Shown: piece by piece, positions 2,951 to 9,299 of the stretch | How positions within the stretch are numbered: position 1 is the first letter of the stretch | Layout of the letters: each line of letters starts with the position of its first letter | DNA from: Chitinivibrionales bacterium | Lineage (GTDB): Bacteria; Fibrobacterota; Chitinivibrionia; Chitinivibrionales; FEN-1185 | Assembly (NCBI GenBank): GCA_035516255.1 | Contig: DATJAL010000031.1 | Span: 62,001-126,000, forward strand | Reading direction: 5' to 3' | Length of the DNA stretch: 64,000 nucleotides | Made by a program: the position numbers and the translations under genes | The notes under the pieces: model-generated | What the model was told of the DNA's origin: nothing | The model's database searches: none | Seen by the model: the letters and a program-made list of their open reading frames with translations, nothing else

Positions 2951-3460
2951 TTACCATCCGTTCCAATGCACCTTTTTCTCATCATACCGTGATTCAGGTT
3001 CCTTTGTTTCCGCAGGCCACCCCACAGAAACCACGCAGAAAGGAAGCACACCATCAGGCATGTTCAGGAGATCACCAATATTTTTCATCCGTTCTTCGCG
3101 CGGGTAAACGCCCAGCCATACCGCGCCGAGGCCAAGGTCGTGCGCGGCGAGGAGCACGTTCTGCGTCGCGGCGGCGCAGTCCTGCACCCAGTAACCCTTG
3201 TGCTTTTCAACCGACAATTCTCCGCATACGATTATTGCGAGCGGCGCGTGTTTGAGCATTTTGCCGTGCGGGTGGATGTCCGCAACGGCGTCCAGCGTTT
3301 TTCGCTCATTGACAACCACGAACCGCCACGGCTGCTGGTTGCCCGCCGACGGCGCGTTCATGGCGGCGGAGAGAAGTTTCCGGATTATTTCTTTTGGAAC
3401 CGGCCGGCCATCGTATTTACGGATGCTGCGGCGGGTGAGGAGGGAGGTGAAGGTGTCCAC
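2951..3460 (-). CDS. Nitroreductase-family FMN oxidoreductase
   Basis: A 169-residue nitroreductase-fold protein. The N-terminal FMN-binding signature R10-R-S-I-R-K-Y is followed by APSAGNQQPWRF (about 36-47), the classic phosphate/isoalloxazine contact. The C-terminal GWPAE-type segment is also typical. These enzymes use NAD(P)H and FMN to reduce nitro compounds, quinones or, in some cases, flavins. The start is GTG at 3460. It is a monofunctional short member; the substrate cannot be predicted. A divergent gene starts about 300 bases away. Confidence 0.85.
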   Translation of the reverse strand: MDTFTSLLTRRSIRKYDGRPVPKEIIRKLLSAAMNAPSAGNQQPWRFVVVNERKTLDAVADIHPHGKMLKHAPLAIIVCGELSVEKHKGYWVQDCAAATQNVLLAAHDLGLGAVWLGVYPREERMKNIGDLLNMPDGVLPFCVVSVGWPAETKEPESRYDEKKVHWNGW

Positions 3461-3756: not shown

Positions 3757-4374
3757 TTGCATCCCCGCATCATGATGAAATCAATCATCGCCGTTTGCAT
3801 TTTCTGCAGCTTGCTATTTGCGAAAGAGATGGTACTCACCACGCTCGACGGCGTCAAGATCGTGCTCAAGGAGGACAACACCTGGGTGCTGCAGAGCGGA
3901 AAGGCGCCGAGCTTCGAAAGGGATTTCACGGTGCCGGTGAACGGGGGCAAGTACGTGCTCATCGCGATGGACGGAACCTGGGGCTTTGTGGAGAAGGAGC
4001 TTGTCCACCAGGAGGACCAGGTGAGGGCCGATTCGATCGTCGGCAACGGCCATTCGGTGAACAAGGACGTCATGGCGGCAAACGCCGAGGCGCAGAAACA
4101 GGCGCTTTCGCAGGTCACCACGAAGATGCGGAACGCGCTGGCGAAACTGAAAATCGACCAGAAGCTGCTGGGCGACTGCATCAAGCGGGCCGAAAAGGAC
4201 GTCACGAAAAAAGAGGACTTTAAGCAAGGCTTGGGCTGGGACGTTTCCATAAGGATGTTCGTTGACCGGGGCAGCATCCTTGCCGTTGCCGACTGCGCGA
4301 TGGCCAAAGAGGACGAGGCTGCGGATTCAACGAAAAAGGCGGCCGGCGGGAAAAAGAAGAAGGCGGCGAAATAG
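3757..4374 (+). CDS. Exported hypothetical protein with Lys-rich tail, TTG start
   Basis: TTG at 3757 is preferred because AAAGGAGG lies 6 bases upstream; the in-frame ATGs at 3772/3775 are 21 or more bases from it. Residues 1-22 are a signal peptide ending near LLFAKE. Next comes a short beta segment (TTLDGVKIVLKEDNTW), a pattern seen in small SH3-like or DUF3157-like exported proteins. A helical middle and a strongly basic C-terminus (KKAAGGKKKKAAK) follow. The basic tail could bind polyanions such as peptidoglycan-linked polymers or LPS. Function unknown. Confidence 0.65.
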   Translation: MHPRIMMKSIIAVCIFCSLLFAKEMVLTTLDGVKIVLKEDNTWVLQSGKAPSFERDFTVPVNGGKYVLIAMDGTWGFVEKELVHQEDQVRADSIVGNGHSVNKDVMAANAEAQKQALSQVTTKMRNALAKLKIDQKLLGDCIKRAEKDVTKKEDFKQGLGWDVSIRMFVDRGSILAVADCAMAKEDEAADSTKKAAGGKKKKAAK

Positions 4375-5234: not shown

Positions 5235-5798
5235 TCAGGCGCCTTCCTTCTTTTTCGCCAGCCTTCTTACCAGAAAATATAATCCCGTCAGGGGCCATAG
5301 TAACCCCGCCCACATCGAGAGTCCCAGATTACCTTTCAATTGCACCTCCAGCATTGGGTCGCTGAGATTGTCGTTGATGAGGTATGCCCATGTGGCCGAC
5401 GGCGCCTTTGTTTCAAGAGCGCCGTCACTTGCCTTCTTTTCTGTCAATTATCCGAACGCCTTTGCCATGTCATCTTCGATGTGCTGCCGCATGACCTCGA
5501 AAATATGGATGCTCAATTTCTGGAATTCATACAGCGGGTCCAGCCCGCCCATTTTCCGCAGGTGGATGCCTTCGCGTATTTCGGTCATTTCGGCAAGGTA
5601 CCGCGACCAGTGCTTGTCATGATGGAACAGCGCGAGCGAGGTGCATTCAGCGGCAATGGTTTTGATTTTAAAATAAGGAGCAAGGGACTTGATTTTGTCA
5701 AGCACTGCATGATAAGGGGAAAGATCGTATTCAATGGAGCAGCCGTTAAGGCGTTTTATATAACGGTCGAGTTTGGCGAGCGTGTTTATATGCGGCAT
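5235..5798 (-). pseudogene. C-terminal remnant of an accessory SecA2-like ATPase, broken by an in-frame stop
   Basis: Two frames read through one another. 116 codons (5798-5451) end in TAA at 5450-5448, and the same frame continues for 70 codons (5447-5238) to a second stop. The first part matches the helical-scaffold C-terminus of SecA-type ATPases, with the run HWSRYLAEMTEIREGIHLR then GGLDPLYEF. The second part has a TWAYLINDN motif like the extreme C-terminus of SecA2-type accessory SecA proteins, plus one membrane-like segment (MWAGLLWPLTGLYFLV). The motor domains (NBD1/NBD2, about 600 residues) are absent upstream. I read this as a decayed gene. A short expressed protein remains possible because AAGGGA precedes the ATG at 5798. 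Confidence 0.55.
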
Positions 5799-6367
5799 GA
5801 TAATATCCCTTGTAAATGAAATGGTTTATGCAGTCAGGAAAACGCAAATTCAAGATGCAAAAAAACTGTCAGATGCGGCTGGAGTGAATGTCGTCGGCGG
5901 ATTGATGCCAGATGGAGTGTTTCTGGGTGATCGAGATCAAGGGGTGAAAAAAACCGTTGTTGACGCTGTGCAATTTTAAGACTTGAAGGGCGAAGGCATT
6001 ATATTCGGTCTGGACAAATTGATTGATGCACGGGTTTTCACGGGAACAATCCGGCTGCCGGATAGGGGAGAAAAATGTATTGCAAAAGGTGATATTAATT
6101 GATGGATGGTCATGAATGACGAGTTCGATTGAAGATTTGGCTTTGATCTCAGAATTATCCGATGTGACGCATAAGCCTGACTCAAGTCTTGCGAGCCAGA
6201 TAAAAATATTGAGGATGAAAAGACAGCGGATGAACTTTGCTGCGTTCATGGATAAAACCTTACGTTTGAAATATATCAGGATTCAGCGGCAAAGAGCAAA
6301 TGCTTTCTTTCTAAAGTAAAGCAGTATGATGCTGCCGGGGAACGCCCAGATTTGTCGTAGGAACGAT
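5799..6367. other. Non-coding or decayed region, 569 bases
   Basis: This is more AT-rich than its surroundings. A 126-codon minus-strand frame (6249-5869) exists, but its composition and lack of any recognisable pattern make it unlikely to be a gene. It may be the eroded body of the SecA2-like gene, although I could not see SecA motor motifs in it. Confidence 0.4.
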
Positions 6368-9187
6368 TTATCGCAGTGCAAACACTCTCTTTACAAATAC
6401 ATTCCCGTCCACATTTGCCCGGATCAAATAAATCCCGCTCACCGAGCCGCTCCCGGTTGATGCTCCCGTCAACTGCACCAAATGCCAGCCCCGGTCCTGC
6501 TGAGCGCCTGCGATCCGCTGCACCACTTTGCCGCTCGCGTTGAGGATATCAACGGCGACATGCGCCGGTTGGTCTATGAAATACCGGACCACGCCTTTTG
6601 CATTTTCCAGCTTGAACGCCGGCAGGGAAGCGGCCGCTGAAAAAGACGCCGCGGGCCGGTACACCGGCGTCATGCCGATGGGGACGGTGGCGAATGACGC
6701 AGTGCCGGATGTCAATCCTGGTGACGCCGCAGTAACGTTCACGGTCCCCGGCATGAAGGTGGAGCGGACCGCCACCTTGCTCAGGCCGCCCTCGGCCTCG
6801 AGTTCCGGGTCGAGCGGGGAGTGGTAGCCCACGGGTTTTCCGGAGGTGACGTACGCATTGGCGCCGCCGCGGTAATTGCCCGGGCCCGAAACGCTCCAGG
6901 TGATGAAATGGCTGTCGGTGGGGCACAGGTTCCCCTGCGCGTCAACGACCTTCGCAACGATGAACGCCGCGTCGCTGCCGTTGGCCCTGATCTGGAACAC
7001 CTCGCCGGTCTGCTTGACAATGGGAGAATCAACCGCGAGCACGATGTGGTCGGCGTTGCCGGCAGTCACCTTCCGGTCGGTGCACACCACGTTGCCGCTT
7101 GCGTCAAGGCCTTCGGCCAGAAGCGTGCCCGCCGCCCAGGTCACGTTGTCCCAGTAGGCCTGGAACGGAAGCTGCGTGGTGTTCTCGGTGAGGTCATTGT
7201 TGCTGCCGCTGCCCGTTGCCGGGTTCGGCGTCTTGGTGCCGATGACTGTTCCGTTAAGTGAAAGCCTGACGCTCGGGCAGTTGCTGAAGGCGTTGACGCG
7301 TACGGTTCCCGAACGGTTCCAGTGATGCGCAAGCGACACCACCGGCCTGATCGAATAGGGAACCCAGGCCGCCTGGTAAATCTTGTACAGCATCTTGGGG
7401 AAGCGGTTGAAGTCCATCATCGAGGTCCCGGTCGACCGCACGTTCGCGGCCGTCACACCTTCCAGATAATCGGCCTGCTCGCCGGGAGTGTCGGCCATGT
7501 ACCATTGACAGACACCGAAGCAGTTTGCGGCCACGCTCGCCCTCCAGTTCTGGAAGTACTGCGCCGCGAACGCGATTTCGAAGTCGTAGGCGAACCTCGC
7601 CGAGCTCCTGTTCCAGGCCTCGGCGCACCACGCCGGGTTGTTGGGGTACTGGTTCTTCACCCCTATCTCGCATCCGGAAAGCGTGCAGGAAAGGATGTCG
7701 CCGTTGGCCGGATTGGGGGTCCGGTCGGCCTGCGCCCGGGTGTTGATGGGGTCCCACTGCACCGAGATCGCCTTGAGCGCCTGTGCCACGACCGTTGCCG
7801 TGACGCCGTTGTCCGCCTCCCAGGCGAGTATGGATGGATTGTTCCTGTCGCGGACGATCATGTCCCTGTGGAGCTCCGACTTCAGGATGTATTTGTTGTC
7901 GGTCAACACCGTGTTTGCGAACCCGTTCTCGCCGTCGCCGCTGGGCTGCACGAGCATGATGCCGTAATTGTCGCACGCGGCCACGAACCCCTTGCTGCAC
8001 GATGAATGTCCCGGACGCCACAGGCTGCCCCCGCACTGCGCCATGAGCTTCGCGTCGCGGAATTCCTGCTCGTTGGGCACGGCGGAGCCCAGCGCCGGAT
8101 AATCGTACCGAGAGGCGCCGCCGTCGAGCAGGTGCTTGTGGCCGTTGATATAGGGGAAATTCTTGTCCCATGTTATCACCCTGATCCCGAGCGGGTCTGC
8201 GAACAGGTCCAGCGTGGCCGAACCGACCTTTACAATGTGATAAACCTTGTACAGATACGGCGTGCCGAAGGTGCTGTTGTTCGGATACCAGAGGGTGGGA
8301 TTGGCGACGTCGCCGGTCTGGTCGAACACGTAGCTCTGGCCCGCGGCGATTGACTGCGTCGCATCGAGGCTGAGCACCACGTTGTTGCCGTTGCGTATGT
8401 CAACCACCTTCGTGGTGAGCGTCACGTTCTGGGAAGCCGCGCTTTCGTTGAGGACGTTCGTCTGTATCTCCACCGTCGCCGACGACCCGTCGCCCGCAAC
8501 CGACTTCGTCACCACGTAGGTTCCCCACTGGTTGAGCACCGAGTACACGTTCTGGGGGACGTGCACCTTGTCGGTGATGTGCATCCACACGGGCCGGAAA
8601 AGCCCGCCGTCCTCCTGGCCGAACCTGAACACCTCGGAGAAGCCGGGGTCCGTATAGAAGCCGCCGCTCTTGCCGACGCGGACGGCGAAAACGTTGTCGG
8701 CGCCGCCGAACTGTACGCTCGAGGTGATGTCCACGACGAACCCGATGAACCCGACCACGTGCGTGGCGTTCGGATTGAGCGCGCTGTTGCCGGGAATGAA
8801 CGTCCCGTTGATGTACGCCGCGGCGCCCACGTGCGCTCCCTCGACCTCGATGAATATCTTCCTGCCGGAGTACTGGTTGTCAAGGGTGAAGTGCTTCCGG
8901 TACCAGCACGTGCCGCCGAGCATTGACCCGTCGCCGCCGCCGCTGCCCTGGTTGATGAAGGTGTCGGTGTCGTTCCAGCAGTGTGGAATGCCTACGTCCT
9001 TCCAGGTGGCGTCGTTGAAGGTCGGGCTCTGGGCGTTCGCCACGTCGCCCTTGGTGAATTTCCACGGCGTCTCGCCGAGGTTGATCGTCACGCGGTTGGA
9101 CGGCTCGGGCGTGTAGGTTTCGGCGAAACACGTTGCCGCCAGAATGAATATCATAACGATAGTTGAAAGGCAGGATTTTACGGACAT
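6368..9187 (-). CDS. Secreted glycoside hydrolase family 2-like protein with C-terminal sorting-like domain
   Basis: The start is the ATG at 9187, with AGGAGG 5 bases upstream, giving 939 residues. The signal peptide ends near CFAE. The order is a GH2 sugar-binding jelly roll (about 30-190, with WYRKHF and the GAHVGAAAYING stretch), Ig-like domain(s), a TIM barrel (about 340-640), Ig-like domains, and an 80-residue C-terminal module (VDILNASGKVVQRI ... GIYLIRANV) like the FlgD/Por-type sorting domains of FCB bacteria. At the usual acid/base position (NPSI..W..NE) it reads W456-E-A-D-N-G, so the canonical Glu is a Gly. It follows the three-repeat surface protein after 112 bases on the same strand, suggesting an operon. 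Substrate unknown; beta-galactosidase-like fold. Confidence 0.8.
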   Translation of the reverse strand: MSVKSCLSTIVMIFILAATCFAETYTPEPSNRVTINLGETPWKFTKGDVANAQSPTFNDATWKDVGIPHCWNDTDTFINQGSGGGDGSMLGGTCWYRKHFTLDNQYSGRKIFIEVEGAHVGAAAYINGTFIPGNSALNPNATHVVGFIGFVVDITSSVQFGGADNVFAVRVGKSGGFYTDPGFSEVFRFGQEDGGLFRPVWMHITDKVHVPQNVYSVLNQWGTYVVTKSVAGDGSSATVEIQTNVLNESAASQNVTLTTKVVDIRNGNNVVLSLDATQSIAAGQSYVFDQTGDVANPTLWYPNNSTFGTPYLYKVYHIVKVGSATLDLFADPLGIRVITWDKNFPYINGHKHLLDGGASRYDYPALGSAVPNEQEFRDAKLMAQCGGSLWRPGHSSCSKGFVAACDNYGIMLVQPSGDGENGFANTVLTDNKYILKSELHRDMIVRDRNNPSILAWEADNGVTATVVAQALKAISVQWDPINTRAQADRTPNPANGDILSCTLSGCEIGVKNQYPNNPAWCAEAWNRSSARFAYDFEIAFAAQYFQNWRASVAANCFGVCQWYMADTPGEQADYLEGVTAANVRSTGTSMMDFNRFPKMLYKIYQAAWVPYSIRPVVSLAHHWNRSGTVRVNAFSNCPSVRLSLNGTVIGTKTPNPATGSGSNNDLTENTTQLPFQAYWDNVTWAAGTLLAEGLDASGNVVCTDRKVTAGNADHIVLAVDSPIVKQTGEVFQIRANGSDAAFIVAKVVDAQGNLCPTDSHFITWSVSGPGNYRGGANAYVTSGKPVGYHSPLDPELEAEGGLSKVAVRSTFMPGTVNVTAASPGLTSGTASFATVPIGMTPVYRPAASFSAAASLPAFKLENAKGVVRYFIDQPAHVAVDILNASGKVVQRIAGAQQDRGWHLVQLTGASTGSGSVSGIYLIRANVDGNVFVKRVFALR

Positions 9188-9299
9188 GGCAGCCTCCTTG
9201 TTTTGTCGCGCATTTATGAAATTTATTTGACAGGTTGACAGTTGAATGCTAACCGTTGACAAGAAATATATTATTCCCTTCTGTCAACATGAGTTCTCG

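Follow-up and report, generated by a model that had tools for sequence, protein, structure and literature searches.

A decayed secA2 gene and the intact leader open reading frame upstream of it in a Chitinivibrionales bacterium

Anatomy of the secA2 remnant

The locus described here lies in a 64,000-nucleotide stretch of contig DATJAL010000031.1 from a Chitinivibrionales bacterium (GCA_035516255.1), the whole of which is referred to below as the window. It consists of a decayed secA2 gene and, upstream of it, an uninterrupted open reading frame (ORF) that we call the leader, with the following features.

5235..5798, minus strand: secA2 remnant, a single frame that starts at ATG (5798), ends at TGA (5237-5235) and has one internal stop, from frame reading and from profile and homologue matches
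5661..5798, minus strand: N-terminal piece, residues 1-46, of which residues 3-39 match the SecA2 N-terminus
5658..5681, minus strand: deletion junction, window residues 40-47, alike to neither flank; homologue residues 40-666 are without counterpart
5448..5660, minus strand: SecA helical scaffold piece, residues 47-116, plus the TAA
5448..5450, minus strand: in-frame TAA between scaffold and tail
5235..5447, minus strand: ATWAYLIND linker and hydrophobic tail ending in Lys/Arg, severed by the TAA
5799..5868, minus strand: 70 nt separating the leader from the remnant and carrying the Shine-Dalgarno-like CAAGGGAT
5869..6249, minus strand: intact leader ORF of 126 aa, with a hydrophobic segment at residues 6-20, a spacer of 97 residues and a C-terminal motif
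5890..5910, minus strand: leader C-terminal motif WHQSADD, residues 114-120, 6 residues ahead of the stop

A preliminary description of this DNA had reported an accessory SecA2-type ATPase broken by one stop codon, of which only the C-terminal scaffold remained. A single frame with one TAA (5450-5448) does span 5235-5798, on the minus strand, and its origin as a decayed accessory SecA2-type ATPase is supported by an intact homologue from the same genus (G001), found among 100 relatives searched. The G001 protein, the sole intact copy run against NCBIfam, scores 796.6 bits, above the curated TIGR04221 cut-off of 725. Residues 54-113 of the remnant match Pfam SecA_SW (E=1.4e-12, 48.6 bits; cut-off 26.7), and its best NCBIfam family is SecA2_Mycobac (E=3.4e-14), where its 52 bits fall far under the whole-protein SecA2 (TIGR04221) cut-off of 725, as expected of a fragment. 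Judged by its sequence, the window copy descends from the SecA2 (TIGR04221) family as a remnant and is not a working member of it.

More than the scaffold survives. Window residues 3-39 align with residues 3-39 of the intact G001 SecA2 at 51% identity, and the C-terminal part of the remnant (window residues 48-185) aligns, in the same frame as the N-terminal match, with G001 residues 667-806 at 55%; the tail beyond the TAA is 77% identical to the homologue over 56 residues. Between these two ends, 627 residues of the G001 protein are absent in frame, and eight window residues at the junction have no match in either flank. On this alignment, an in-frame deletion of approximately 1.9 kb inside the gene is the main damage, and the stop arose either before or after it. 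The nucleotide-binding motor lies within the missing stretch (homologue residues 40-666), and because it is gone the window SecA2 cannot be a working ATPase. Recoding of the TAA as a rescue was set aside, since the deletion already takes out the motor. A search of the genome (4.28 Mb assembly, 96.6% complete) at E 0.001 recovered the missing middle only as the housekeeping SecA (G000:C31:220476-223298), a retained frame of 1043 codons. The preliminary description proposed that the loss could matter for the export of surface proteins; besides this SecA, the genome gives one SecY match.

The differences that separate the remnant from its G001 homologue, given as fractions at the first, second and third codon positions, are 0.30/0.32/0.46 in the N-terminal piece, 0.29/0.29/0.57 in the scaffold and 0.25/0.16/0.59 in the tail beyond the TAA, where the third position is highest and the second lowest. 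A long-dead gene would differ evenly across codon positions, and most of this divergence would therefore predate the death of the gene; these codon differences suggest that the decay of secA2 is recent. In the scaffold, 29 of 63 residues differ between the window and G001, whereas 24 of 59 separate G001 from the G039 copy, which is intact and more distant, as expected if constraint on the window copy had been relaxed. The window also departs at 3 of the 17 residues that are invariant in all 15 intact copies, as compared with 0-2 of 17-19 when single intact copies are set against the other 14. This contrast shrinks when only the six Fibrobacterota copies are compared: the window departs at 6-9 of 35-39 and single intact copies at 2-6, with equal values for the two against one set of five.

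The tailed SecA2 family and its leader

We use the term tailed SecA2 for copies that end with a linker, a hydrophobic stretch and then Lys/Arg. In G001 the C-terminus runs through P-S-A-T-W-T-Y-L, a short linker and the hydrophobic stretch to Lys/Arg, and a structure model of this protein (mean pLDDT 66.8) places a low-confidence helix at 770-807. Searches at E 1e-15 yielded tailed SecA2 matches in 7 of 167 genomes of the phylum, with an internal stop in the window copy alone and frames of more than 800 codons in the other six. At the same threshold, the phylum of G169 contributed 2 matching genomes out of 40, that of G173 contributed 8 out of 82 (G252, G254 and a fragment in G240 being new), and that of G172 contributed 2 out of the 198 drawn from it. 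Within the best 80 of 381 matches from a contig scan, Fibrobacterota, Calditrichota, KSB1 and one 'Deltaproteobacteria' entry stand on top and are followed almost only by actinobacterial SecA2, for which the matches rarely extend into the tail. The maximum Kyte-Doolittle mean over 15 residues, taken within the last 60, reaches 1.25-2.34 in the 15 intact tailed loci (more than 1.8 in 8 of them); it does not exceed 0.90 in any of the other 67 loci among these best 80 of 381, none of which has a comparable hydrophobic end.

A single SecY match per genome was found in all 12 genomes searched at E 1e-5, and no second SecY, the mark of a SecA2/SecY2 system, was detected in any of them. From the single SecY in each of the 12, we infer that tailed SecA2 must use the ordinary channel. 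The sole SecY match of G169 (G169:C46:61358-62269) carries a TAG inside the matched stretch. Additional SecA-like frames, besides SecA and tailed SecA2, occur at G032:C363:7499-9112, G026:C61:49330-50895 and G026:C170:110419-112227 (621, 665 and 979 codons). Two further tailed copies are damaged or appear so. On the reverse strand of L124 (G170, KSB1), a tailed secA2 with an intact leader has a single in-frame TGA (oriented 2591-2593) in an otherwise continuous frame, and is either a pseudogene or an assembly error. At L123:1-435 (G240), a tail-only piece of tailed SecA2 is fused to an unrelated frame and looks like an independent wreck of a tailed secA2.

The preliminary description had called the region upstream of the remnant unrecognisable. 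Comparison of the locus with relatives, which it had proposed, led to the intact same-genus secA2 of G001 and the leader upstream of it; the window ORF at 5869-6249 (minus strand) is homologous to that G001 ORF (E=1.6e-9) and is recovered at E=4.4e-13 by a leader profile from which it was left out, the second-best value of 19. The earlier sighting is thus correct for a common event, the loss of an accessory gene, and wrong in two details, and the part of the locus worth following is the upstream leader family. Tailed secA2 was located at 19 places, two of which were left out: G168, where the contig begins inside the gene, and G240, where there is the tail alone. Among the 17 loci judged, the window included, 16 have a leader, and they come from Fibrobacterota, Calditrichota, KSB1 and a 'deltaproteobacterium'. 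At the remaining locus, L120 of G254, the frame of the tailed secA2 is open and no leader precedes it. A leader-like ORF that does not have the motif is present in G168.

The leaders that precede secA2 are same-strand ORFs of 121-146 codons ending 52-236 nt upstream of the gene, some of the starts being our own choice among possible ATGs. With three copies that precede a hydrolase, described below, they form a set of 19. Held-out profiles ranked 18 of the 19 above every decoy among 1877 frames. The G026 leader was weakly recovered (E=0.064), and the G252 leader was recovered neither by its held-out profile nor by the leader profile run on its genome. At the 67 other SecA2 loci, 65 of which carry at least 3000 nt ahead of the match, 0 of 6915 frames matched the leader. 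Searches of Pfam with four leaders, and of NCBIfam with three of those four, gave a best E of 0.097, and we treat the leaders as an unnamed family.

The leaders are conserved at their extreme C-terminus, and their middle can scarcely be aligned. The consensus approximates L-x-K/R-K-x-x-x-H-x-S-x-D-D/E-x-P, with a core near W-H-Q-S-x-D-D/E-x-P, and the window motif is without the Pro that follows the acidic pair. The pattern S-x(0,1)-[DE][DE], picked after the leaders had been seen, occurs within the last 24 residues of 13 of 15 leaders and of 10 of 687 other frames, the G001 and G336 leaders being the exceptions; in the G170 leader, found after the pattern was set, the motif is WHHAGDDDP, with Ala in place of the Ser. 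The acidic motif starts 6-13 residues before the leader stop. Near the N-terminus, the hydropathy maximum is 1.69-2.93 in all 19 leaders, and the spacer from this signal, judged by hydropathy, to the motif measures 84-107 residues in 18 of 19, G001 being not measurable.

The leader profile was also run on 41 and then 167 genomes of the phylum, and on 82 KSB1-group genomes. Three genomes (G022, G174 and G275) contain copies of the leader family ahead of an alpha/beta hydrolase (L126:3300-3704; L145, leader ending at 3074; L147, reverse-strand leader ending at oriented 1041). Both of the hydrolases tested, out of the three, match Pfam Abhydrolase_1. The three are 45-51% identical, each with a strongly hydrophobic N-terminus, and hydropathy suggests that they are membrane-anchored. 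At E 1e-15, G275 yielded no match to tailed SecA2. The placement of leaders before the hydrolase is more easily reconciled with a movable control element than with a partner of SecA2 only. At L148 (oriented 4088-4162, G217), just the last 24 leader codons are present with the motif kept (DWHQSPDEDPFPV) and no next gene nearby, a relic. Leader matches in G111, G289 and G020 were dropped, being weak and interrupted by stops.

Predicted pairing of the leader end with the next Shine-Dalgarno site

The duplex energy between the last 14 leader codons and the 20 nt before the next start was compared with a null of 1000 synonymous recodings that follow local codon usage, a test chosen after the first 15 loci had been looked at. 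Over 14 intact loci, pairing exceeds the synonymous null (Fisher p=3.4e-4, or 6.6e-4 when G336, which is closely related to G172, is left out). Four of the 14, namely G039, G022, G167 and G171, reach p<0.05 singly, and the other ten do not. Across 15 parameter settings, each with 300 recodings, p ranges from 3.6e-5 to 3.8e-3. As controls, five interior leader stretches gave p values of 0.41-0.95, and 13 rotations of the leader ends onto the Shine-Dalgarno sites of other loci (150 recodings) gave 0.094-0.73.

Four loci that came later gave 0.72 (G170; 0.22 with an alternative start), 0.018 (G022b), 0.13 (G174b) and 0.0007 (G275), two of the four being significant alone, with a combined Fisher p of 6.1e-4. 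In the window itself, pairing of the leader tail with the downstream Shine-Dalgarno-like site is not above chance (p=0.62). Folding of the whole junction against shuffles gave z values from -4.74 to +0.58 over 15 loci and is not uniformly stronger. When a stalled ribosome was represented by a simple mask, the Shine-Dalgarno site was opened by at least 0.1 in 5 of 15 loci and closed by 0.08-0.18 in three (G039, G169 and G172).

A candidate export-monitoring leader and its alternatives

Over the set, the leader and secA2 form a conserved unit, and the leaders have a hydrophobic N-terminus, a spacer, a C-terminal motif and codon-level pairing with the Shine-Dalgarno site. We consider it probable that the window locus is a decayed leader-secA2 unit, and that in its relatives the leader serves as a monitoring substrate of the SecM/MifM type. 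Export of the leader, its arrest, its release by export and the induction of secA2 would be linked as follows. The N-terminal signal of the leader would direct it to the translocon, and the C-terminal motif would stall the ribosome a few codons before the leader stop unless export pulls on the chain. During such a stall, the final leader codons would be unable to pair with the secA2 Shine-Dalgarno site, and the freed site would allow the export motor to be made when export is slow. In the window organism, this would leave the sensor without its output gene.

SecM of E. coli, in the sections of PMC10987492 considered, is a small signal-bearing protein encoded just upstream of secA, with a conserved C-terminal motif and with the secA Shine-Dalgarno site paired with upstream RNA. 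The leader resembles it in being a small signal-bearing protein just before a secA-type gene, in its conserved C-terminal motif and, over the set, in a predicted pairing of the next gene's Shine-Dalgarno site with upstream RNA. It differs from SecM in that F-x4-WI-x4-GIRAGP is absent, its motif being acidic with His and Ser, and in that the target is an accessory SecA2 and arrest would be predicted by analogy. The leader spacer of 84-107 residues lies between the SecM medians of 71 and 131.5 and not near the MifM median of 54 (values from the same sections of PMC10987492). MifM of B. subtilis, which lies upstream of yidC2, stalls mainly at codons 89-92 of 95, where acidic residues matter (PMC6037786). 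The likeness, compared by features, is the acidic motif near the stop (6-13 residues before it in the leader), whereas MifM differs in monitoring YidC. The SecA2 of the tailed loci is like the mycobacterial type (TIGR04221) in that the G001 homologue exceeds the curated cut-off and its genome has one SecY, and is unlike it in the C-terminal hydrophobic tail and the upstream leader ORF; the window copy differs further in having no motor.

All of the features used to screen for Sec-monitoring arrest peptides in the sections of PMC10987492 considered are found in the leader family, namely a small unannotated ORF upstream of a sec gene, an N-terminal signal or transmembrane segment, a conserved C-terminus and a spacer of more than 30. 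The leader motif nevertheless differs from every motif named in those sections. A word search of the main text of that paper returned no mention of Fibrobacterota, Calditrichota or KSB1; its lone 'SecA2' is 'secA' followed by a reference number. A word search of PMC7897499 gave no hit, and the published text covered by the literature search mentions no motif of this kind, no SecA2 as a target and none of these phyla, and describes no leader upstream of SecA2. Our best reading, based on the text covered, is that the leader motif is probably unlike the published arrest classes.

For the window alone, and compatibly with the monitoring interpretation of the family, it is quite possible, though we do not favour it, that the locus is a plain pseudogene in which the upstream ORF is a decaying remainder with no function here. 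The chance-level pairing of the window leader and the absence of Pro after the acidic pair of its motif are in line with such decay, as is the fact that secA2 is clearly dead; against this, no stop interrupts the leader ORF, its length is normal (126 codons, compared with 121-146) and it is among the best recovered of the family when held out. A different function for the whole family, in which the leader is small and exported, a substrate of SecA2 or its partner, and stays beside it because the two cooperate, would account for its tight link to tailed secA2 (16 of 17 loci) and its hydrophobic N-terminus. We consider it unlikely, as the leader family also precedes an unrelated hydrolase in three genomes, including one that gave no tailed SecA2 match (G275), as its conservation lies at the extreme C-terminus, and as a plain substrate leaves unexplained the synonymous tail codons that, over the set, favour pairing with the Shine-Dalgarno site.

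It is very improbable that secA2 is intact and that the TAA, or the entire lesion, stems from faulty sequencing or assembly. A single error would be enough to create a TAA, but base-calling errors do not remove approximately 620 codons and leave two conserved ends joined in frame, the missing middle was found elsewhere in the assembly, at E 0.001, only as the housekeeping SecA, and the window departs from otherwise invariant residues. Least credible is a working small protein made from the 116-aa fusion of N-terminus and scaffold, for example a regulator that binds SecA or SecY: it has an ATG start behind a Shine-Dalgarno-like site, a frame kept by the deletion and a persisting codon-position bias, but the retention of frame is a one-in-three chance, invariant residues are altered and the six other tailed frames among the 167 genomes of the phylum all have more than 800 codons.

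With less assurance than for the monitoring role itself, we lean towards the view that the leaders represent a new class of nascent-chain sensor, marked by an acidic His-Ser-Asp motif, which would control a hydrophobic-tailed accessory SecA2 in Fibrobacterota, Calditrichota and KSB1 and would have been put to a second use ahead of a membrane-anchored hydrolase. The sensor of the window would have outlived its gene, and the effects of a stall there may be limited to ribosome traffic or to the remnant. Little is known of how SecA2 is switched on. Should the arrest prove real, an accessory SecA2 would be under nascent-chain control, one leader family would have been placed ahead of two unrelated genes, and a stalling motif would be added that is unlike the RAPP group. 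The leader would also offer a ready-made reporter of export stress for phyla with few genetic tools. The window would represent a leader-secA2 unit that is losing its output gene before its sensor.

Around the unit, synteny with the same-genus relative is weak. Over the 20 kb compared (E 1e-6), the ORF at 3757-4374 is the only match outside the leader-secA2 unit, at 24% identity. The window contains no Rfam match at gathering scores and no tRNAs. Beside the unit, at 6368-9262 on the minus strand, lies a gene for a large glycoside hydrolase family 2 protein with a weak, below-cut-off match to a FlgD-type C-terminal domain.
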